Below are positions 12,628 through 38,299 of a stretch of 42,801 nt of DNA, one piece after another; the stretch's first letter is position 1; each line of letters starts with the position of its first letter. Both the position numbers and the translations under genes were made by a program. The stretch covers positions 1-42,801 of the forward strand of contig CAMCFA010000015.1 of the NCBI GenBank assembly GCA_945873955.1, written 5' to 3'. This DNA is from an uncultured Clostridia bacterium (lineage in GTDB: Bacteria > Bacillota > Clostridia > Oscillospirales > Ruminococcaceae). The notes below the pieces were generated by a model that was not told the origin of the DNA, made no database searches, and saw only the letters and a list, made by a program, of their open reading frames with translations.

Positions 12628-13773
12628 TTATTCCTCGCTTTCACTGCTTTCTTTGATCTCACTGTCGTCTGTGTTTTCGTCCGTTTCCGGAGCGGTTTCC
12701 TCCGCGGGAGCTTCGCTTTCCGGCTCGTCGGTTTCTTCCGGCTCTGCGCCGTCAAGGGTTATCTCGTCTGCGTCCTCGGCAAGTATGCTGGGAGCCTCCT
12801 TTTCCTCTTTCTTTTCAGTCTTTTTGCGGGCGCACTCCTCTGCCGCCTTGTCCTGCTCCTGTAATTCACGGCAGGCGTCAGAGTTAACATACAGTGGTAT
12901 CTGCTTCTTTTCGGCGAGTATCTTGAACACGATCACCAACGCAGTTCCCACAATGAACGAAGCCGCCGCCACAAGCTGGGAAACCCTGAACTGCCCTATC
13001 ATAAGGCTGTCGGTGCGAAGTCCCTCTATCCAAGCTCTGCCAAGACCGTACCACGCGGCGTACAGCAGCGCGATCTCGCCGTCGAAGGTGCGCAGCTTCT
13101 TTGAGTAGAAATGCAGCGCGATAAAGCCCACCAGACACCATACGCTCTCATACAGGAAGCAGGGGTGTACCAGCGTGCCTGCGTCGAAGCCGCTCCTGCG
13201 GATAATATCGGTGCTTGTCATGCCGAAGATCCAGTCCGGGCTGCACGCCGCGCCGAATGCCTCCTGATTGATGAAGTTGCCCCAGCGCCCTATGCACTGC
13301 CCGATAAGGAAGCCCATTGCGGCAAGGTCAGCCATGGCGCGGAAGTTCACCTTGCGCACCCTGCACGCAATGAATCCGCACAGGAAGCCGCCGATAATGC
13401 CGCCGTAAATCGCAAGACCGCCGTCCCTTATCGTCGTGAAGGTGGTGATGAAGTCAAAGCTCATGCCGGAGTTGGGGTCAAGGGTCTGGAACACGCAGTA
13501 GTAAATTCTAGCCCCTAAGAACCCTCCGATAAGCGCCACGAACACAACGTCGAACATTCTGTCCTTATTCAGACCGAAGTCCTTTGCGCGGTGCATTGCG
13601 TATAAATACGCCAAAACAACGCCCAGCGTTATCAGCACGCCGTACCAGTAGATCTTTATCCCGAACAGCTCGAAGCCCTGATAGTAGCTCAGCGTGATAC
13701 CGCCGAACAGGTTCGGGAAAGTCAGCTCCACCTCCGGAAAGGCGGAAGCCGTTGAAATAAGTGAAGAAACCAT
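12628..13773 (-). CDS. lgt: Prolipoprotein diacylglyceryl transferase with acidic C-terminal extension
   Basis: This polytopic membrane enzyme (381 aa) moves diacylglycerol from phosphatidylglycerol to the lipobox cysteine of prolipoproteins. It carries the family segments IRDGGLAIYGGIIGG (about 115-129), the signature IGRWGNFINQEAFG with the essential arginine at 163, and HPCFLYESVWCLVGF. Normal Lgt proteins have about 260-290 residues. Here roughly the last 100 residues form a soluble, strongly acidic tail (many Glu, Asp, Ser, Pro and Thr) after EEKKEEKEAPS-like sequence. It sits between the peptidase pair and folD with gaps of 2 bases on each side, clearly one operon. Confidence 0.95.
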   Translation of the reverse strand: MVSSLISTASAFPEVELTFPNLFGGITLSYYQGFELFGIKIYWYGVLITLGVVLAYLYAMHRAKDFGLNKDRMFDVVFVALIGGFLGARIYYCVFQTLDPNSGMSFDFITTFTTIRDGGLAIYGGIIGGFLCGFIACRVRKVNFRAMADLAAMGFLIGQCIGRWGNFINQEAFGAACSPDWIFGMTSTDIIRRSGFDAGTLVHPCFLYESVWCLVGFIALHFYSKKLRTFDGEIALLYAAWYGLGRAWIEGLRTDSLMIGQFRVSQLVAAASFIVGTALVIVFKILAEKKQIPLYVNSDACRELQEQDKAAEECARKKTEKKEEKEAPSILAEDADEITLDGAEPEETDEPESEAPAEETAPETDENTDDSEIKESSESEE

Positions 13774-13775
13774 TG

Positions 13776-15047
13776 TTATTCCTCCGTGGGATTTATGATA
13801 GAAATGCAGTAGTTGCTTTCGTCAAAGCTCATGAGCCGTTCCAGCATACCGTCGTAGCCGGCGTTCGCCGCAAGTTCCGCGTAATCGAACGCAGATGTGC
13901 CGGTCAGCGCCGCGTCTGAGAGATTCTGCGCAACGCTTTCGACGTTGTTGTACATGCGAATGTTGTCGCCGTAGAGGTACTTCTTCGCCCGCAGGAACGC
14001 CTCCTTTGACGGGGGGCAGCTTTTCAGCCGCCGGTACTCTCTGCATACCTCCTCGGCTACCCTGTCCGGCTCGTCCGATTCGCCGTAGATACCCGGGATA
14101 AAGAAGCCCCTGCCCATCATTATGCTGCTTTCAAAGGTTTCGTTTATCAGACCGCTGTCCCTCATGCGGCGGTAGAACTCGGTGCTTGCGCCGACTGCGG
14201 TGTCGTTCATCAGCGTGCGGTAGATGTACTCCTCCGTCATCTTTCCGCCGGGATACGCCGGGGATTTGAAGCCCATTGCAAACGTAGTCTTGCCAAGCGG
14301 CATGGACATCTCCATTCGGCGGGTGATCACCTGCGGCGGTTCTTCATCAATAATATGCCGCATGTTCACCGCTCTGCCCGGTTTCAGGCAGCGCTCGCAG
14401 ACCTCTATCGCGCTTTCCAGGTCGAAATTTCCCGCAATGCACAGGTACATGTTCGACGGATTGTAGAACGCCTCGTACACGTCGTACAGCAGCTTGTCGG
14501 TTATCTTCGCTATGCTTTCGGGAGAGCCGGCGATGTCGTTTCTCACCGGGCTGCTGCGGAACATTCCCTTGTACAGCTCCATGCAGACCCGCCAGCCGGG
14601 GCTGTCGAGATACATGGTGATCTCCTGCGTGATTATCCCGCGCTCCTTTTCTACGTTCTCCGGCGTGAAATAGGGGCTTTGCACAAAGTCCAGCAGTATT
14701 TCAAGGTTCTTCTCAAAATTGGAGGAACAGCTAAAATAATACCGCGTGCTGTCGTAGGAAGTCCCTGCGTTGCAGGAGGCTCCTGTTTCCGCGAAGCGCT
14801 CGAACGCTTCCTTTTCCGGGGACTCGAACAGCTTGTGCTCCAGATAATGCGCCGTGCCGTCGGGAATGTATATCGGACTGCCGCCGTCAATGCTGTAACA
14901 GTTGTCCACAGAGCCGAACTTCACCGAAAACTGAGCCGTCACCGTGGAATACCCCGCCATGGGATAAAGCAGCACCGTCACCCCGCTGCTGTGGGTGTAT
15001 TTATAATATCTCTCGCCAAGTCTTGCGCTGACTATTTCTTCCAGCAT
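13776..15047 (-). CDS. M16-family zinc peptidase, YmfH-like (active subunit)
   Basis: The product has 423 aa. The inverted zinc motif HxxEH is intact at residues 67-71 (HYLEH), and the third ligand region ERGIITQEITMYLDS follows about 65-75 residues later, as in M16 enzymes. It is the second gene of a pair; its ATG shares one base with the TAA of the upstream M16-like gene (TAATG). In Bacillus the paired YmfF/YmfH and AlbE/AlbF proteins work as a hetero-oligomer with one active and one inactive partner, and that layout is reproduced here. Substrate is unknown; peptide maturation is possible. Confidence 0.9.
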   Translation of the reverse strand: MLEEIVSARLGERYYKYTHSSGVTVLLYPMAGYSTVTAQFSVKFGSVDNCYSIDGGSPIYIPDGTAHYLEHKLFESPEKEAFERFAETGASCNAGTSYDSTRYYFSCSSNFEKNLEILLDFVQSPYFTPENVEKERGIITQEITMYLDSPGWRVCMELYKGMFRSSPVRNDIAGSPESIAKITDKLLYDVYEAFYNPSNMYLCIAGNFDLESAIEVCERCLKPGRAVNMRHIIDEEPPQVITRRMEMSMPLGKTTFAMGFKSPAYPGGKMTEEYIYRTLMNDTAVGASTEFYRRMRDSGLINETFESSIMMGRGFFIPGIYGESDEPDRVAEEVCREYRRLKSCPPSKEAFLRAKKYLYGDNIRMYNNVESVAQNLSDAALTGTSAFDYAELAANAGYDGMLERLMSFDESNYCISIINPTEE

Positions 15048-16309
15048 TACTGCACCTCCTCAGTGGAAAGGGTGTATACCGTGTCCAGCGAATACAGCCG
15101 GCAAGCCTCCATAACGCGCTGGGCGGTCACCTGCTGAACTCCCTCGGCAAACTGCTCCGGGGTGAGCATTTCCGGGTCGGTTATCTGTGAGGAATACCAG
15201 CTTGATATCGCCCCAGCGGAATCGTACACCGCCCGCGCATTCTCGGTAAGCTCCAGCCTGGCATGCTCCAGCTCCTCGTCGGTCACGCCTTTCATGCAGA
15301 TATTCATGAACTCGGACATCACCGCGCGCTCGGTCTTGGCAAGATTCGCCGCGTCAACGCCTGCGTATACGGTGATAGTTTTCTTGAACCGGTTGGAATA
15401 GCTGCTGCAATAATAGCACAGCGACTGCTTCTCGCGGATATTGGTGAAGAACCGTGAGGTGGTCATTCCGCCCAGAATAAGCGACAGTATCGCCCCGGCG
15501 TAACGGTCTTTCAGTTCCGGCGCTTTGAAGTACATGCGCAGGATAGACTGCTGCATTGGCATATTTTCGGTGACGCGGTATACGTCTGTTTTTAGCTTGC
15601 TTACCTTCGGCGACAGGGTGAAGATCCCGCTGCGGTAAAGTCCGCCCAGCCGCTCCCGGAACACTCTCTCACTGGCGGTGAACTCGCTGCACCCGGCGCA
15701 GAATATCTCTATCCTGCCCTGCTCCAGCATGCTTTTCCACGCTCTGTACGCAGACTGGGGAGTTACCGCCCGCGCCTGCTCAACAGTGCCGTTCACCGGA
15801 AGTCCGCAGGGTTCGCCGGGGAACGCAGCCATTGCGCCCTGCTGCGCCGCGTAGCTGCGCTTGTCGCCCTTTACGCTCTCGATAGCGTCGATAAGCTCCT
15901 GCCGCATGATGTCCACCGCCGCAGGCTCGAAGCCGTCGCCGTCGGTCTTGGGGTCAAGCAGGCAGTCCAGCAGAAGCTGGCAGCACTCCTCCTCCAGACG
16001 CTCGCCGTCCAGCGTGTAGCGGTCGTCAATGCAGCTTATGCTGAACGTCATGGAACGGCTGTCGAAGTTGCAGGAGAGGCTGTCCGACACGGCAGCGCCG
16101 TACAGGTCGGAGTACTTCTCGGTAAGCCGGGTGAGGTTGGGGTACTTCCGGCAGCTATCTGTGAGAATGTACGGCAGTATCGCAAAGTCGCCGCGGCGAT
16201 CCTCTGTGAATTCCGTGTAGAATGTTATTGCAATGCGGTTTGTCTTGAATCGTCCGTCGGTTATCTTGGAGAAATATATACCGTCGGAAAGTTGTTTTCT
16301 ATCTAAAAT
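15047..16309 (-). CDS. M16-like peptidase partner, YmfF-like (inactive subunit), apparent ATT start
   Basis: The reading frame encodes 420 residues, the usual size for YmfF. It lacks HxxEH; the matching site is a PNLTRLTEKYSDLYG segment. It retains the M16 C-terminal half, including GGMTTSRFFTNIREKQSLCY. The first ATG/GTG/TTG in frame is a GTG at 16090, which would remove about 73 conserved N-terminal residues (LSDGIYFSKITDGRFKTNRI and onward). No ATG, GTG or TTG exists between there and the upstream stop region. A perfect AAAGGAGG (16325-16318) stands 8 bases before an in-frame ATT at 16309, so I place the start there. A base-call error is the alternative. Confidence 0.85.
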   Translation of the reverse strand: MLDRKQLSDGIYFSKITDGRFKTNRIAITFYTEFTEDRRGDFAILPYILTDSCRKYPNLTRLTEKYSDLYGAAVSDSLSCNFDSRSMTFSISCIDDRYTLDGERLEEECCQLLLDCLLDPKTDGDGFEPAAVDIMRQELIDAIESVKGDKRSYAAQQGAMAAFPGEPCGLPVNGTVEQARAVTPQSAYRAWKSMLEQGRIEIFCAGCSEFTASERVFRERLGGLYRSGIFTLSPKVSKLKTDVYRVTENMPMQQSILRMYFKAPELKDRYAGAILSLILGGMTTSRFFTNIREKQSLCYYCSSYSNRFKKTITVYAGVDAANLAKTERAVMSEFMNICMKGVTDEELEHARLELTENARAVYDSAGAISSWYSSQITDPEMLTPEQFAEGVQQVTAQRVMEACRLYSLDTVYTLSTEEVQ

Positions 16310-16325
16310 TTTGATTACCTCCTTT
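16309..16325 (-). promoter_or_regulatory. Ribosome binding site that decides an ATT start
   Basis: AAAGGAGG at 16325-16318 is followed by 8 bases (TAATCAAA) and the codon ATT at 16309-16307. Spacing is ideal for initiation. The codons before (ATC, AAA) and after (TTA, GAT) offer no standard start. Confidence 0.75.
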
Positions 16326-31302: not shown

Positions 31303-33654
31303 TTAGCTCAGCCTGTACCCGCCGTAACTCTGGAGCTTATACACCTTTCCTGCGGGTATATCCGGCACCTCAACGCTGGATATGATGTTGCCCTCTGCAT
31401 CGGACAGGATAAGCGTTTCGCCTTTTTTCAGGCTGAAATTCGCCTGCACCTGCCGCAGAGCCTCCTGAGTTTTGTTGTTGTCCGTCACAATAAGCAGCTC
31501 GCTGTACGGCTCGATAGTGAGCGCCGGGAGCTGCCACCGCTGGAGCTCCTCCGGCTTATCAGTGAGATAAAGTCCGCCGGTGGACGCCGCAGTGCTGTTC
31601 GGGTTGTACAGAACGAAATACCCCGCTTTCTTCTCGGTACATATCGTCTTTATCTGAAGCGGCGCACCGGTGGTTTCTTTCTGCTGAGTTACCAGCTTCG
31701 CGATCACCCTGCCGTCGCTGTCCGCCATATCCGCGGAAATGGTGATCTCCGGCGTATCGTAGCTCTGCCCGTTTATCTCCCAGCATACGAACTCCCAACC
31801 GTCTGCGATTTCCGCCGACAAGGGCACGCTGCAATTGACGTGATACTCCGCTGAAAGAACTCCCCTGCCCTTTTTGCGCTGGGTATTCAGCTTTGTCACG
31901 GCGCAGTCCGCTGAGGTGACTGAAACGCTGTAACGCTCGTCCTCCCATTCGTAAAGCCGGAACATATCCCGGAACACCACGAATTCTCGCATATCCGCGA
32001 AGCTGCGTATCTGCTCGCGGCTCTCCGCGAAGTTTTCCCTGCGCGCCCACGTTGAGGTTATCCCCTTGTCCAGCGCGTAGAACTGCTCGTTATCGCTGAT
32101 CTCGCAAAGCTCGTCAAGCACTTCCTTGATGTGGGTCTCCTCAAAGGCGTACGCGGTGAGGTCGCTCATCACTGCCGCGAACTTCTCGCGCATGTCCTCC
32201 CGCTGGAGCAGCGCTTTCAGCACCTTGCTCTCGCCGCTCATGTGGGTGCCGTCAAGAAGATCCTTTATGGTGTTGAGGTTTGCACGCTCGCCGTACAGGC
32301 TCCATGCAAACTCCGCGTCAAAGAACATGAACCGCCAGCGTCCGTCCATGTATTCGCCGGTGATCTCCTCGCCCTCCGCCGGGTAATACCGGAACGCTTT
32401 GTAGTTGTTCCCCGGCCAGTCCTTGTTTGATATGAATATCTGCATACAATAATACTGCACCAGATTATCTATGTCCACAAGGCTGCACAGCTTGTCGAAC
32501 ACCTTGTCGTCGGTAAGATCCTCGTCGTAGAGGGCGTACATCTCCGCGTAGTCCGCCAGCGCACGCTCGCTGCCCTCGTCGGCGTTCTCTGTGTTGCTCA
32601 CTATCTCATAATTGTCACGGTTCCCGCCGAAATAGGTCGCAAGGTAGTCTTGATTGTAATTCTCGTGCAGCCACGAAAAACCGTAATACTCGCCGTTCAG
32701 GAACACCGCCGCCGGCGTGCAGTGCTGCGTCACCGGGTAGCCGTAGTCCTGAGCCAGATTCTGCGAAAGCTCGTCCCGCACCCCTGCGAACTCACGGTCG
32801 TTTGCGCCGTTTCGCAGCACCAGCCGGTCGAACTCCGTCACCGGAACGCCGTCCTCGGTTTCAGCACCGGGGAAAAACGCATACTTGAATTTGCCGTTCT
32901 CCGGGTCGTAGTCCTTTCGGGCGATAAGCCGCAGCGACTTCTGGTCGGGAACTCTGGAATAGCCGCCGGAGAGCCTTACCCCCGCTGCCTGATCTATCAC
33001 CTTGGTGCCGTCGTTCTCGAACACCTCGACGTATATCGGGCGCTCCCACTCCCTGCCGGTCATGTAGTAGTTGCCCGGCGCGTTGTAGGGTATCTCCTCG
33101 CCGGGGTGTTCCTTGACGTAGTCGTCGTAAATCTTGCCCGGCACGGCAATGCCGTACTCGTAATCGTACAGATTATACGGGTCGGTGCTCAGCACGAAAA
33201 CCAGCGTGTCGTCGTCGAAACGGCTGTCAACGTCCTGCCCTATTACATAGCTCACGGTGTAAACCGCACCCAGAGTTCCGTCCTCCGCGGCGGCTGCCGC
33301 CTTTATCGTGGAGGCGCGCACCTCTGACGTGGCGTTTATCTCTATCGGCTGGGTGTATACTTTCCCGGACTCCGGCTTCGGATCGGAGCCGTCGGTGGTG
33401 AAGTATATCTGCTGATCCCCCTCGGCGGTAAGCTCCACCGAGATATTCTCCGAATAAAACCCGGAGGGCAGCGAGAATCCCACTCTGTCAGATATTGTCT
33501 GCGGCTGCTCCTTCACTGTTTCGGTGACTGTCATCTCGCCGTCCTCGGCGACCTCGGCGATCACCTGAACGTCCTGCGGCGGAAACAGCGTGAACATCAC
33601 CGCCGAAACCACCCCCAGCGCAGCCACTGCGCCGAGAATAATTAATCTTTTCAT
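31303..33654 (-). CDS. CotH-kinase-family surface protein with chitobiase-like and lamin-tail-like domains
   Basis: The product has 783 aa. An N-terminal hydrophobic anchor or signal (LIILGAVAALGVVSAVMFTL) is followed by a chitobiase/FN3-like beta domain at about 58-125 (ENISVELTAEGDQQIYFTTD). A CotH domain spans about 135-570, beginning FVLSTDPYNLYDYEYGIAVP, with AGVRLSGGYSRVPDQKSLRL and the later FMFFDAEFAWSLYGERA. Near 670-783 is a lamin-tail-like domain (YFVLYNPNSTAASTGGLYLT). CotH of Bacillus phosphorylates coat proteins; many homologues in gut Clostridia are exported and of unknown substrate. The ATG at 33654 overlaps the GH5 stop (TGATG). Confidence 0.88.
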   Translation of the reverse strand: MKRLIILGAVAALGVVSAVMFTLFPPQDVQVIAEVAEDGEMTVTETVKEQPQTISDRVGFSLPSGFYSENISVELTAEGDQQIYFTTDGSDPKPESGKVYTQPIEINATSEVRASTIKAAAAAEDGTLGAVYTVSYVIGQDVDSRFDDDTLVFVLSTDPYNLYDYEYGIAVPGKIYDDYVKEHPGEEIPYNAPGNYYMTGREWERPIYVEVFENDGTKVIDQAAGVRLSGGYSRVPDQKSLRLIARKDYDPENGKFKYAFFPGAETEDGVPVTEFDRLVLRNGANDREFAGVRDELSQNLAQDYGYPVTQHCTPAAVFLNGEYYGFSWLHENYNQDYLATYFGGNRDNYEIVSNTENADEGSERALADYAEMYALYDEDLTDDKVFDKLCSLVDIDNLVQYYCMQIFISNKDWPGNNYKAFRYYPAEGEEITGEYMDGRWRFMFFDAEFAWSLYGERANLNTIKDLLDGTHMSGESKVLKALLQREDMREKFAAVMSDLTAYAFEETHIKEVLDELCEISDNEQFYALDKGITSTWARRENFAESREQIRSFADMREFVVFRDMFRLYEWEDERYSVSVTSADCAVTKLNTQRKKGRGVLSAEYHVNCSVPLSAEIADGWEFVCWEINGQSYDTPEITISADMADSDGRVIAKLVTQQKETTGAPLQIKTICTEKKAGYFVLYNPNSTAASTGGLYLTDKPEELQRWQLPALTIEPYSELLIVTDNNKTQEALRQVQANFSLKKGETLILSDAEGNIISSVEVPDIPAGKVYKLQSYGGYRLS

Positions 33655-35246
33655 CAATGCTCCCTTTGTAATTTCTCCATAAAGAGTTTTGCCAGCGCTT
33701 CATTACGCTCCTGCGGAAAACTGCTGGTATCCTCCGGGTAAAAGCCGAACATCGGCTCATGATATGCGTGATAGCTGAAACTCAGCCCATTTTCTACACA
33801 GAAATCCAGGACGTCCTCCACCCAGCGTTCACCGCCGCGGTTTTCCTTGAAGCTCTCCGCGTCTGAGCCGAACTCGCCGAGAAATACCGGTACGTTGTTC
33901 TTCCTGCCGAACTCAATGACCGCAGACAGCCTGTTGTTGATAAGCTCCCTGCCGCTGCTGAATATGTTCTCCGCCAATGCGAAGTCCGCGCGGATATCGG
34001 CAGCGCCGCCCTGCGTGATATCTCCGGAAATACAGCCGCTTATCTTATATCGGCAGCCCTCTTTCAGCTCGAATCGGCGCAGCGTAAGTACATGATCATC
34101 ATTAGAACCGCTTAACGTACAGCAGCCTCCGTCAGTGCGTATCTTGCCGCTGCCGTCGCTGCTCCACTCGCCGATGATATCAAGATCTCCGTCGGAGAAG
34201 TCCTCATGCCAGATCACTCTGGAGCTTCCGTCCGGTGAATACTCCGTCACCGTGATATTGTCAAAACTAGCGCTGCCCGAACCGATCTTCCATGTATGGA
34301 GCGCCGGAGAAAACAGATTATATTCCTCAGTCCTCTGGAAGTAGTCTGTTTCGTAATACTGGCTGCCCCCGACCTGTTTGGCTGAAATACAATCCACCCA
34401 ATAGCTCAAATAATCCGCATAGATGTCTTCCGTTTGGTATTCAGCCGTATTCTGCGCTGTCTGATGTGTTAATGCCATAGGCTCGTAGAAATGCGTTTCA
34501 TAAACTACATTATGGTCGTCAATGAGATACCACAGCATATCCGCCGTATACTCACCCCAGAGCGTTTCTCCCGTGCTGACATTCTGAACCCCCGCAACGC
34601 GTTCCGCAAAAATGATGTGATCATCATCATACCTGCGTATCTCGTCAGTGCAGCGCTGAACCAAACTGCGGCACTGCCCCACCGTTTCCTCAACAGTGTT
34701 TTTCTCCGGCACGACAGGCTCATTTACGATCCCATAACCGATTATACATGGTTCGTTGGCATACCGGCGGGCAATCTCTCCCCAAAGCGAAACCAGCCGT
34801 TTCTGGTTTTCAGCGTCGGTCCACAGAGCTGTTCCCTTTCCCTGCGACTGATATCCGCCCTGCGGATAATGCATATTCAGCACCAGACCGATCCCGTACT
34901 TCTTCGCCCACGCAATGCTCTGATCCAGAAAATCGAACCCTTCCTGCTTATAGGTATAAGGAGCGGAATCGTCCTCAAACCAGCGGTAATTCAGCAGAAA
35001 TCTGACCGAATTGAAGCCCAGCTCCGCCATTTCTTTAAAGCTGTCCTCATTGTGGTGAAGTCCCACTTTGTCAAGGCTGCCTTCCCACACATCGTTGCCA
35101 AAACCCATGCTGTACAGTACGACCGGCTCTCCCGTCGGACTTATTATGCTGCTCCCGGCGGTATGATAATAACCGGTCGCCGTTTCGGGAAGTTTTGATA
35201 TCAACAGCGGTATAGCCGCCAGCAAAGCAAGTATTTTCTTTAACAT
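33654..35246 (-). CDS. Secreted GH5-like glycoside hydrolase with an inserted beta-rich domain
   Basis: The product has 530 aa. A signal-like N-terminus (KKILALLAAIPLLISKLP) precedes a TIM barrel with the acid/base Glu176 in YGIVNEPVVP, His252 in VVYETHFYEP and the nucleophile Glu458 in PVFLGEFGSD. Between them, residues about 275-430 hold an extra region with a beta-sandwich look (ALHTWKIGSGSASFDNITVT, then WHEDFSDGDLD and LTLRRFELKEGCRYKISG), like a carbohydrate-binding module. The catalytic glutamates are thus 282 residues apart instead of about 110-150. No dockerin is seen. GGAGGTTCGGAT precedes the ATG. The GC content is lower than in neighbours, which suggests transfer. Likely substrate is a beta-glucan or mannan. 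Confidence 0.86.
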   Translation of the reverse strand: MLKKILALLAAIPLLISKLPETATGYYHTAGSSIISPTGEPVVLYSMGFGNDVWEGSLDKVGLHHNEDSFKEMAELGFNSVRFLLNYRWFEDDSAPYTYKQEGFDFLDQSIAWAKKYGIGLVLNMHYPQGGYQSQGKGTALWTDAENQKRLVSLWGEIARRYANEPCIIGYGIVNEPVVPEKNTVEETVGQCRSLVQRCTDEIRRYDDDHIIFAERVAGVQNVSTGETLWGEYTADMLWYLIDDHNVVYETHFYEPMALTHQTAQNTAEYQTEDIYADYLSYWVDCISAKQVGGSQYYETDYFQRTEEYNLFSPALHTWKIGSGSASFDNITVTEYSPDGSSRVIWHEDFSDGDLDIIGEWSSDGSGKIRTDGGCCTLSGSNDDHVLTLRRFELKEGCRYKISGCISGDITQGGAADIRADFALAENIFSSGRELINNRLSAVIEFGRKNNVPVFLGEFGSDAESFKENRGGERWVEDVLDFCVENGLSFSYHAYHEPMFGFYPEDTSSFPQERNEALAKLFMEKLQREH

Positions 35247-35270
35247 ATCCGAACCTCCTGCCGCATTATA

Positions 35271-35702
35271 TCAGACAGCCCCGTCCCCGATCGCCTCTTG
35301 CAGGATCCTTTCATATACCTCCGGCATTGCTTTTTTTAAATTCAGCGGACGAAAATCCTGCGAATCCACAAAACCATGAGAGCTTGTTCCCTCGCAGAGG
35401 ACTTGCGTTTCACCTTTCCGCGTCACTGTGTAGCCAAATTCAATACGCGCCGGGGTAAACCGGGTGATCCTTGCTGTGACGACAAGGCAGTCGTCATACT
35501 TTGCCGGCAGCCGGTATTTACAGGATATCCCCGTAACCGGGAGCATTACCCCCCGCTTTTCCATTTCGGAATAGCTTATTGCGGCGTTTTTAATATAATC
35601 CGTGCGCGCTATCTCGAACCATACCGGATATACGGCGTGATGTACCACTCCCATACAGTCTGTTTCAGCGTAGCGCACTGTGATCTCGCTTGTTGAAGCC
35701 AT
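35271..35702 (-). CDS. YbgC/FadM-type acyl-CoA thioesterase
   Basis: This 143-aa hot-dog fold thioesterase has the 4HBT-family opening VRYAETDCMGVVHHAVYPVW and FEIARTDYI, with the catalytic aspartate at residue 15 and the following histidine pair. GVMLPVTGISCKYRLPAKYDD and RITRFTPARIEFGYTV complete the fold. It cleaves acyl-CoA thioesters; chain length is not predictable. It starts 3 bases after the SDR gene stop and ends 24 bases before the GH5 gene. Confidence 0.9.
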   Translation of the reverse strand: MASTSEITVRYAETDCMGVVHHAVYPVWFEIARTDYIKNAAISYSEMEKRGVMLPVTGISCKYRLPAKYDDCLVVTARITRFTPARIEFGYTVTRKGETQVLCEGTSSHGFVDSQDFRPLNLKKAMPEVYERILQEAIGDGAV

Positions 35703-35705
35703 ATT

Positions 35706-36473
35706 TTACAGCCTTTCCCGTCTGCTCTGGAACTGCCCGGCGAAGAACGCCAGAACGCAGTCCGGAACAAGCCGTTCAAGATATATTCCCGCTTTCATCA
35801 CCGGGCTTGGAACTATGGTAAGCTCCCCGGCGAACAACTGCCGCACCGCGTATTCCGCGACATATCTGCTGTCCTGCGGCGGCGCTGTGAAGTCCACCCG
35901 CGCCTTGTCCATGAACTCGGTCTTTACCGGTCCGGGACAAAGCATTGACAGCGAAACCTTGCTGTGCGCCCGGCGAAGCTCCTCGTGGACTGCCTGCGTC
36001 ATGCGGACAACATAAGCCTTGCTCGCGTAATAGGACGAAAAGTACGGTCCCGGCAGGAATCCCGCGCTGCTCGCGACATTTAGGATATAGCCGTAGTCAC
36101 GCTTTTTGAAGTCCTGCAAAAACAGCTTGAACAGCGTATGGAACGCCTTTACATTGACGTCCAGCATTTCCAGCTCCCGGTCAAGATCGCTCTCGGTGAA
36201 CTCGCCGAATTCACCGAATCCGGCATTATTCACGAAGATGTCGATACCGTACTTCTTCACCCGGCGGTGAAGCTCGATACACTGCTTTGTATCAGAAAGA
36301 TCCGCCGCGATTATCTGCACCTTTACGCCATACTCCCGTATAAGCTCCTCTTTCAGCGCTCTGAGCCGGTCTTTCCTGCGGGCGGTGATTATGACGTTTA
36401 TGCCGTGCTTCGCCAGCGACCTTGCAATGTCCCTGCCGATACCGGAGCTTGCCCCGGTGACTAATGCTATCAT
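35706..36473 (-). CDS. Short-chain dehydrogenase/reductase (classical SDR)
   Basis: This 255-aa NAD(P)-dependent oxidoreductase has the cofactor motif TGASSGIG (6-13), NNAG near 82-85, catalytic Ser near 135 (NVASSAG) and YxxxK at Y148/K152 (SYYASKAY). Arg residues after beta2 (TARRKDRL) favour NADP. The C-terminal part resembles the DltE/YqjQ group. The ATG overlaps the DUF896 stop (ATGA). Substrate unknown. Confidence 0.9.
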   Translation of the reverse strand: MIALVTGASSGIGRDIARSLAKHGINVIITARRKDRLRALKEELIREYGVKVQIIAADLSDTKQCIELHRRVKKYGIDIFVNNAGFGEFGEFTESDLDRELEMLDVNVKAFHTLFKLFLQDFKKRDYGYILNVASSAGFLPGPYFSSYYASKAYVVRMTQAVHEELRRAHSKVSLSMLCPGPVKTEFMDKARVDFTAPPQDSRYVAEYAVRQLFAGELTIVPSPVMKAGIYLERLVPDCVLAFFAGQFQSRRERL

Positions 36474-36694
36474 TTCTTGTCCTCCGTTTTCTTACCCGGC
36501 TTTACAGCCTTGACAAGACTGCCGTCCGGCATTTTGTAGTACACCCTGTCAAGCTGCTGCTCCATGTTGCTGCGGAACATCGCGCGGTACTCGTCGCGGA
36601 GCTGCTGCTGTTCCAGCTTTTCTTCCTCGGTAAGACCCTCGCTGCGGTGCTTGCGCGCAAGGTGATTTATTCTGTCTATCTTTTCCTTTTCCAT
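36470..36694 (-). CDS. DUF896 protein (YnzC/YneR-type)
   Basis: This 74-aa protein opens EKIDRINHLARKHRSEGLTE and continues EEKLEQQQLRDEYRAMFRSN, the standard two-helix DUF896 pattern. It is a cytosolic protein of unknown role; Bacillus YnzC is under SOS control. It is 15 bases after the SASA gene and overlaps the SDR gene by 4 bases. Confidence 0.92.
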   Translation of the reverse strand: MEKEKIDRINHLARKHRSEGLTEEEKLEQQQLRDEYRAMFRSNMEQQLDRVYYKMPDGSLVKAVKPGKKTEDKK

Positions 36695-36709
36695 TGAATT
36701 ATCCTCTAA

Positions 36710-38299
36710 TCAGCCCTTGTACCCCGGCTTTGTCAGAACGAACGGCGGCAGCGGCACTCCGTTTTCACTGTCGAACAGCGGGATATCGTCGGTGTAATTC
36801 GTCCAGAGGTAGCGCACGCCGCAGGGACACTCCACCCCGGTGATGTGAAGAATTTCAGAACCCTCTCCGGCATTCCAGCGTTCGCGCTCGGAAAGCTCCG
36901 CCTGCGCCTTATGCCATTCGCCGTCAGCGTCCATAAGCTCAAAGCCTGTCATCTCGCCGGAAGCGTTCTTTACTTCAAGGCTCATGCCGGTGGACACGAA
37001 AACGTCCACGCTGTCGGAGTTCCACAGAGGGTCGTATACCTCCGGATTGAAAGTGGAGAAGCCCGGTTCTTCCTCGGTGTCATCGGTGAACTCCACATGG
37101 TAGAAGCCGTTCAGCGCCGCAAGGCAGAAACGGTGTCCCGGGGTCTTTTTGTCCTTAGGGTGTATCTCGCTGAACTCGCCGCAGTCTGTGAGAACGGCAA
37201 GCGCGGTGTTCTGAACGGTGCGGCAGGTCTTAGCCTGCGCCTCGCGTATTTTGCACCAGTTCTTGAAGTCCGGGTCCGCCTCCCACTTGTGCATAGGGAG
37301 CTGCCCGATAACGAAGAACAGGTCGTCATCATTCCAGTCGTCACGCCAGCAGCGTATCATCTGATTAAGCAGCTTGTAGTACATATCCGGGCGGTGGTCG
37401 TCGCTCTCGCCCTGATACCAGATAACGCCGGACATCGTGTAGGGCGCGACGCGCTCCACCATGCTCTTATGAAGCACTCCCGGCGACATCGGGTTCAGCG
37501 GGGAGGGCGGTCCGGGGTACTTGTTCTCACCGCAGTATTCAAGGCAGCCGTCCCATGTGGGGTTCGGCGCGGTGGTGTAGTACTCAGCGCTCTTGCGCTC
37601 CCACTCCGCGTGGTACGCTTGGTAGTCTAGGTACTCCTGCTTTAGCTGTTCAAGGCTCTTACCCTCGGTCGCCTTGTCGTATTCGTCGAAATATATTGAA
37701 GTTTCTCCGTCGGCGTATTCGCGTTTCAGCCACGCGCTGGCGGAAGTCCCTCCCCAGTTGCAGCCGACTATTCCCACAATGACGCCCAGCCGCTCCGAAA
37801 GCTCCTTTGCGAAATAGTAGCCGACAGCGCTCCAGTGCTTGGCGCTCTCCTTGTTGGAGAAATCGCACCAGCCCATTTGCTTCTCGCTCTCGAAGAAGCT
37901 GTCGTCCGCGATAGATTTCTTCATGGTGTAGTAGAAACGGACGTTCGGGGTATCGTCGTTTTCAAGGCTCTCCGGGCCGCTGTTGCAGGTCTGGAGCTCC
38001 AGTTCCATGTTGCTCTGACCGCCCGCCAGCCACACCGCACCAACCGCGACATTCCGGAAAACCGTGGTATCCGCGCCGTCGGTGACGGTAAGCTCAACGC
38101 AGTCCTGCGCAGGCTGCGGCGGCAGCATGGCAAGCCACCTGCCGTCCTTGACGACTGTGGTAGTCTGGGCGGCTTCCTCGCCGGTTATGCTGACGGTTAT
38201 CTTAGTGCCGTCAACCCCTGTGCCGAACACGGAAAGCGGCTTGCTGAACTGCAAAACCATGTTATCACTGAAAATTCTTGCCGTACTGAAATTACTCAT
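36710..38299 (-). CDS. Sialate O-acetylesterase-like (SASA/DUF303) carbohydrate esterase
   Basis: This 529-aa enzyme of the SGNH type removes acetyl groups from sialic acids or plant sugars. Motifs: the nucleophile serine 96 in VWLAGGQSNMELELQ, GVIWYQGESDDHRPDMYY, and the catalytic Asp/His block FSEIHPKDKKTPGHR. A beta domain precedes the catalytic part, and a second beta-rich part ends it. No signal peptide is apparent, so it likely acts on imported oligosaccharides. It has its own consensus promoter at 38353-38381. Confidence 0.9.
   Translation of the reverse strand: MSNFSTARIFSDNMVLQFSKPLSVFGTGVDGTKITVSITGEEAAQTTTVVKDGRWLAMLPPQPAQDCVELTVTDGADTTVFRNVAVGAVWLAGGQSNMELELQTCNSGPESLENDDTPNVRFYYTMKKSIADDSFFESEKQMGWCDFSNKESAKHWSAVGYYFAKELSERLGVIVGIVGCNWGGTSASAWLKREYADGETSIYFDEYDKATEGKSLEQLKQEYLDYQAYHAEWERKSAEYYTTAPNPTWDGCLEYCGENKYPGPPSPLNPMSPGVLHKSMVERVAPYTMSGVIWYQGESDDHRPDMYYKLLNQMIRCWRDDWNDDDLFFVIGQLPMHKWEADPDFKNWCKIREAQAKTCRTVQNTALAVLTDCGEFSEIHPKDKKTPGHRFCLAALNGFYHVEFTDDTEEEPGFSTFNPEVYDPLWNSDSVDVFVSTGMSLEVKNASGEMTGFELMDADGEWHKAQAELSERERWNAGEGSEILHITGVECPCGVRYLWTNYTDDIPLFDSENGVPLPPFVLTKPGYKG

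Follow-up and report, generated by a model that had tools for sequence, protein, structure and literature searches.

Start site of the ymfF-like gene

In a 42,801-nucleotide stretch of DNA from an uncultured, gut-type Clostridia bacterium of the Ruminococcaceae (hereafter, the window), a gene resembling ymfF has an ATT codon behind a Shine-Dalgarno (SD) sequence where an ordinary start codon would stand. The question raised by this locus is whether translation begins at AUU and, if so, why such a codon has been kept. The relevant features are as follows.

12628..13773, minus strand: lgt (prolipoprotein diacylglyceryl transferase), which follows in the apparent operon, with Pfam and NCBIfam matches
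13776..15047, minus strand: gene for the ymfH-like active M16B subunit, with an ATG start, the zinc motif HYLEH and a match to NF047421
15047..16309, minus strand: gene for the ymfF-like M16B subunit, frame of 420 residues starting at ATT, with a match to Pfam PF05193, the R/Y region kept and a zinc site without HXXEH
16307..16309, minus strand: predicted AUU start codon, in frame, 8 nt after AAAGGAGG
16318..16325, minus strand: SD sequence AAAGGAGG, assigned from the sequence and followed by TAATC toward the start codon
16342..16752, minus strand: WapI-like immunity-family gene (Pfam PF24716, E 5.4e-09)

The minus strand around the start of the ymfF-like gene reads ...tatacttAAAGGAGGtaatcaaaATTttagatagaaaacaa... 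in the window. The nearest upstream stop lies 13 codons before the ATT, and the frame is open in between. No ATG, GTG, TTG or CTG occurs between this stop and the ATT, and there is no ATG, GTG or TTG from the stop to codon 73, where a GTG at position 16090 is the earliest downstream NTG. The original prediction, that an in-frame ATT lies 8 nt after a perfect AAAGGAGG and that ATG, GTG and TTG are absent from the 73 codons upstream of the first GTG, was correct in both coordinates and counts.

A profile of 36 relatives was aligned with the solved homologue 3d3y_A. Profile position 6 aligned with chain residue 7, and the alignment extended to position 417 of 418, that is, over nearly the full length. 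Because 3d3y_A aligns near its N-terminus, the start of the ymfF-like protein should lie close to the ATT codon; initiation at the ATT gives the complete N-terminus that the family leads one to expect, whereas initiation at codon 73 does not. This bears out the earlier claim that the stretch upstream of the GTG fits the N-terminus of the family.

Gene products and neighbourhood

The 420-residue product matched the M16 C-terminal domain (PF05193) in Pfam. It scored 262.9 bits against NCBIfam NF047422 (YmfF, printed 'YfmF'), for which the cut-off of 285 is a naming threshold and not a biological feature; since the score is below this cut-off, we call the product YmfF-like. The ymfH-like product scored 358.3 bits against NF047421, above the cut-off of 250. 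Its ATG start, described as normal in the original prediction, was found as stated, and this ATG shares one base with the stop codon of the ymfF-like gene. Directly upstream of the ymfF-like gene and on the same strand lies the WapI-like gene, which ends 32 bases from the AUU.

The YmfF-like protein of the window contains no HXXEH anywhere. The string was found in 3 of the 38 YmfF-like proteins of the genus, at residue 195 or 196, far from the zinc site, and HXXEH was present in all 36 of the YmfH partners that could be called at the 38 loci. On the other hand, R292, Y299 and Y300 were invariant in 36 aligned YmfF-like proteins. The accessible text on a published M16B pair assigns the R/Y region to substrate binding and describes YmfF-type subunits as carrying this region and binding the HXXEH subunit (PMC8960859). 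The product had been described as an inactive, regulatory subunit. Its zinc site lacks HXXEH, but 'regulatory' is too weak a word for a protein that keeps the R/Y substrate-binding region.

The NCBIfam name alone ties this family to the 5-aminopentanol modification of EF-P. In the accessible text of an EF-P genetic screen, ynbB, gsaB, ymfI, yaaO, yfkA and ywlG are named, and YmfH and ymfF do not appear (PMC5885033). The link to EF-P, being a database name only, was kept out of the argument on the start codon.

Elsewhere in the window, genes for a CotH kinase, a GH5 cellulase and a SASA-type esterase lie on one strand (31303-38299, minus strand), and 11 dockerin matches were found in the genome to which the window belongs. 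Based on these genes and matches, the host bacterium may be a fibre degrader.

Conservation of the AUU codon in the genus

The ymfF-like gene was present in 39 of 43 genomes of the genus. One locus was dropped because its contig ends before the start (G032), the four genomes with no match (G006, G010, G023 and G026) were 73-77% complete, and L002, which is the same contig as L003, was not counted. In the 38 genomes with a readable start, the codon was ATT in 35, ATA in 1 (L015, in which the preceding codon is ATT) and ATG in 2 (L063 and L065, in which the start lies two codons upstream). The original prediction had proposed comparing this codon among close relatives and had named ATG there, together with reads supporting a sequencing error, as grounds for abandoning the AUU; AUU or AUA stands at the codon in 36 of these 38 genomes. 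Across the genus, the identity of the YmfF-like proteins to that of the window goes down to 42%.

In a tree of 66 proteins, calculated with the first alignment columns left out, the genus was set apart by a branch with full support. ATT occurred in each of its four basal groups, and the two ATG species formed a nested sister pair. By this distribution, the AUU dates far back in the genus, and parsimony gives a single loss. The ATG pair forms a natural comparison pair for the AUU species.

For the other genera of the family, the gene was read in 88 of the 137 genomes with a match. In every one of these 88 genes, an ATG, GTG or TTG lay between codons −8 and +5 relative to this place. The same was true of 6 of the 36 AUU or AUA genes of the genus, where the NTG occupies codon −3 or −5 and falls within the SD. 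No upstream in-frame ATG, GTG or TTG was present in 25 of the 36 AUU or AUA genes; in the other 11, the nearest one was that inside the SD (6 genes) or was at least 13 codons away (5 genes). As the 36 species are related, these counts are not independent of each other. Among the family genomes read, no AUU start of ymfF was found outside this genus.

Shine-Dalgarno sequence, spacing and leader

The predicted energy of the duplex between the SD of the window gene and the anti-SD was −13.1, a value equalled or exceeded by 12 of 243 ORFs of the same genome. In most species of the genus, the SD is split and weaker (AAGGACTGAT); what the species mostly share is AAGGA and TGAT. By this energy measure, a strong extended SD throughout the genus was rejected: the 36 AUU or AUA starts had a median of −6.7 (range, −13.1 to −6.0), and most of the genus, at −6.0 to −6.7, fell on the weaker side of the median for ORFs of this genome (−8.6, n = 243). 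The median for NTG starts of the other genera was −8.85 (n = 28).

From GGA to the ATT or ATA, the gap was 9 nt in 26 and 10 nt in 6 of the 36 genes, the remaining 4 having GAGG or GGG in place of GGA. A gap of 9 was also the commonest among the 199 SD-led genes of this genome (27 genes; 39 had no GGA). Of the 36 genes of the genus, 28 carried TGAT at −8 to −5, versus 5 of the 199 SD-led genes of the window's genome.

Reinitiation from an upstream gene was considered as a general cause of the AUU start and rejected. Only 11 of the 38 genomes of the genus have a small Lys-rich ORF that terminates 12 bases ahead of the start codon, and the upstream gene in the window is a different one. The small basic ORF (for example, ..ARKTGIPTTKAGLERKVG..KKKK), with its stop joined to the SD, was seen at L013, L015, L016, L020, L022, L024, L027 and L066 and was recognised by the same stop at L014, L019 and L023. 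A 45-residue piece of the small basic protein matched no Pfam family.

Substitution pattern around the codon

The conserved ATT could be a start codon or an internal isoleucine codon. ATT made up 25% of the isoleucine codons (251 of 996) in 38 genes of the genus, with the first three columns left out. In 10 other columns with isoleucine in at least 30 rows, the commonest codon reached at most 81%. The start column showed 1 codon change on the tree among the 36 non-ATG rows and 3 over all 38. We compared this column with others holding a conserved amino acid with at least three codons, counting only the rows carrying that amino acid. It had the fewest changes of 70 such columns, the next having 2 and the median being 12.

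Changes were then counted base by base on the genus tree in 36 rows, the two ATG species being left out. The counts were 9-13 at −20 to −15, 0-6 at −14 to −5 (at most 4 at nine of these ten positions, the sole higher value being at −9), 7-10 in the spacer from −4 to −1, and 0, 0 and 1 in the ATT itself. The coding bases +7 and +12 also had 0 changes and were as quiet as the ATT, so the base counts alone are no proof; the weight is carried by the ATT's third base, together with a quiet SD standing before a fast spacer. Codon −1 encoded nine amino acids with 13 changes in the 36 rows, and codon −5 was a stop in 12 of 36 species. The stretch before the ATT thus does not behave as a coding sequence.

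One explanation accepts AUU initiation and regards the codon as fixed in the genus by neutral drift and devoid of regulatory function. It is consistent with the strong start that the downstream partner ymfH has of its own. However, the single codon change in 36 rows, set against a median of 12 in other conserved columns, is difficult to reconcile with drift. A change from ATT to ATG takes one step, yet ATG arose once, in the nested sister pair. We therefore consider drift unlikely.

A different start site was also examined, three codons earlier, with the ATT as an internal isoleucine codon. Codon −3 is CTG in 25, TTG in 3 and ATG in 2 of the 36 species (30 in all), and the aligned place is where the gene starts in most other genera. 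However, 6 species in several lineages, that of the window included, have GTA, GAT or TGT at this codon. Codon −3 directly abuts the SD core with a spacer of zero, and a gap of 0 after GGA occurred in 2 of the 199 SD-led genes of this genome. The variable codon −1 beside a constant ATT and the stops at codon −5 speak against it as well, and an internal isoleucine codon is unlikely to be ATT in 35 of 36 rows, given the usage above. The NTG at codon −3 is most simply read as belonging to the TGAT motif, which would lengthen the pairing with the 16S rRNA tail, and a start at this codon is quite improbable.

An error in sequencing or assembly, or decay of the start in a gene no longer expressed, would suit the rarity of AUU starts in the genome and the distance of 73 codons to the first downstream NTG, but can be dismissed: ATT in 35 genomes of different species excludes an error, and the genus matches contain no internal stops and encode a protein conserved throughout.

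The AUU start proposed in the original prediction is thus supported by the conserved codon, the SD spacing and the full-length family N-terminus. We conclude that translation of the ymfF-like gene very probably starts at an SD-placed AUU, which selection would have kept to hold translation of the substrate-binding M16B subunit low, as for infC, pcnB and staphylococcal cvfC1. What the sequences show directly is that AUU occurs in each of the four basal groups of the genus as sampled, although AUG is a single base change away.

Non-NTG starts in the genome and the start of infC

A sample of 442,801 bases, made up of the window and 20 stretches of 20 kb, gave 243 confident ORFs. The best NTG choice for these was ATG in 218, TTG in 14 and GTG in 11. 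Eight of the 243 ORFs were flagged for a non-NTG codon, among which the ymfF-like gene stood alone by a wide margin: 27.7 score units for its ATT, compared with 9.8 for the runner-up, at an AAC codon. A genome-wide habit of AUU initiation was rejected, as the ymfF-like gene was the sole clear non-NTG start in the 243 sampled ORFs.

The start of infC was examined as a known case (loci L069-L098 and L179-L208). In this genus, ATC was found at the aligned place in all 26 readable loci of 30 examined; an in-frame GTG was present inside the SD region in 2 of the 26, and an ATG or GTG further upstream in a few. In the other genera, an AUH codon (AUU, AUC or AUA) stood behind an SD in all 27 readable loci of 30, as judged by eye, some of these loci also having an in-frame GTG in the SD. 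From these sequences, AUH initiation looks normal for infC in these bacteria.

Start of the partner gene ymfH

The start of ymfH could be called in 36 genomes of the genus, L017 and L024 being the uncallable loci; it was ATG in 34, GTG in 1 and TTG in 1. The median SD energy was −11.5 for ymfH versus −6.7 for the AUU or AUA starts of ymfF, a difference that is inflated because the ymfH start was chosen partly by its SD. Given the ATG and the stronger SD of ymfH, less YmfF than YmfH would be made, unless coupling levels the two out. Overlap between the start of ymfH and the stop of ymfF was seen in the window and in 23 of these 36 genomes of the genus. This overlap suggests that the two genes are translated together, and it speaks partly against independent dosing of the two subunits. 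It is plausible that the codon sets the YmfF:YmfH ratio, and control of the ymfF-like gene by IF3 is likewise plausible.

Discussion

AUU initiation has known precedents. pcnB of E. coli starts at AUU. According to the accessible text, pncA of Borrelia burgdorferi combines an AUU start with a truncated database annotation (PMC13398362). Both resemble the present gene in the codon, and pncA probably in the annotation as well; they are different genes in other phyla, and genus-wide conservation is not among the features given for them in the text available. AUU initiation is also described as working in clostridia in the portion available of PMC11040787.

The closest parallels come from Staphylococcus. 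In the accessible part of PMC13009471, the mapped starts of S. aureus include AUU (cvfC1) and AUA (ccpN, citZ and infC), with extended SDs at cvfC1, ccpN and infC, and the AUU of cvfC1 with its extended SD is conserved in staphylococci. In poor medium, the reporters of cvfC1, ccpN and citZ reached some 10% of the level obtained with AUG; rich medium raised the ccpN reporter, whereas the AUU-bearing cvfC1 reporter showed no medium-dependent change. As far as this text goes, cvfC1 and ccpN share with the ymfF-like gene a conserved non-canonical start in a Gram-positive bacterium and start-proximal extended SD pairing. The genes themselves differ, the staphylococcal starts were mapped by ribosome profiling and reporters while that of ymfF is predicted from sequence, and the extended SDs there contrast with the split, weaker ones (AAGGACTGAT) of most of this genus.

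infC likewise starts at an AUH codon preceded by an SD, and many species share this start. It differs in that it encodes the factor that senses the codon, which makes for obvious autoregulation, whereas a peptidase gene has no such loop. Moreover, AUH at infC runs through the family sample, and AUU at ymfF is confined to this genus among the genomes read. With respect to its product, the pair resembles the M16B heteromers YmfF/YmfH and PttP1/PttP2 in having adjacent genes for an R/Y subunit and an HXXEH subunit; the accessible text on these makes no mention of start codons (PMC8960859). The parts of the literature surveyed on AUU starts, ymfF, ymfH, 5-aminopentanol and EF-P gave no AUU start in this gene family, and the few conserved bacterial AUU-start genes found there include no peptidase gene and no genus-wide case in Clostridia. 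The present case is unusual for the depth of its conservation and for the gene concerned.

How the AUU start would work can be outlined as follows. The SD about 9 nt upstream would position the ribosome on the AUU, and the start-proximal TGAT or TAAT present in most of the species would lengthen the pairing with 16S rRNA, so that the weak codon is still found. AUU is read by the ordinary initiator tRNA, and the protein would still begin with formyl-methionine. By analogy with the S. aureus starts, the AUU would keep YmfF output low; the weak codon may have been selected because slow synthesis of the R/Y-bearing M16B subunit is required. Since this subunit would bind the substrate as well as its HXXEH partner, a shortage of YmfF would cap the activity of the enzyme as a whole, an effect that goes beyond regulation. 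With less certainty, rejection of AUU by IF3 may make the rate dependent on IF3 and on the condition of the initiation machinery, as is the case at infC. The stronger proposal, that the AUU makes the R/Y subunit rate-limiting for the YmfF/YmfH peptidase and that output thereby depends on how stringent initiation is (through the IF3 level and extended SD pairing), is tentative and in our view rather unlikely to hold in full; because the AUU of cvfC1 is blind to the medium, a sensor role is not favoured.

The start also has a bearing on annotation. A gene caller admitting only ATG, GTG and TTG would lose 10 to 112 residues in the 36 AUU or AUA species, unless it took an upstream NTG; database N-termini of this protein are therefore probably wrong. 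If the R/Y subunit is indeed rate-limiting and its output follows initiation stringency, a maturation peptidase of this genus would have come to sense the translational state of the cell, through a signal shared with infC. With its genus-wide AUU, this gene lends itself to asking, in a natural setting, whether selection favours weak start codons as throttles of expression.
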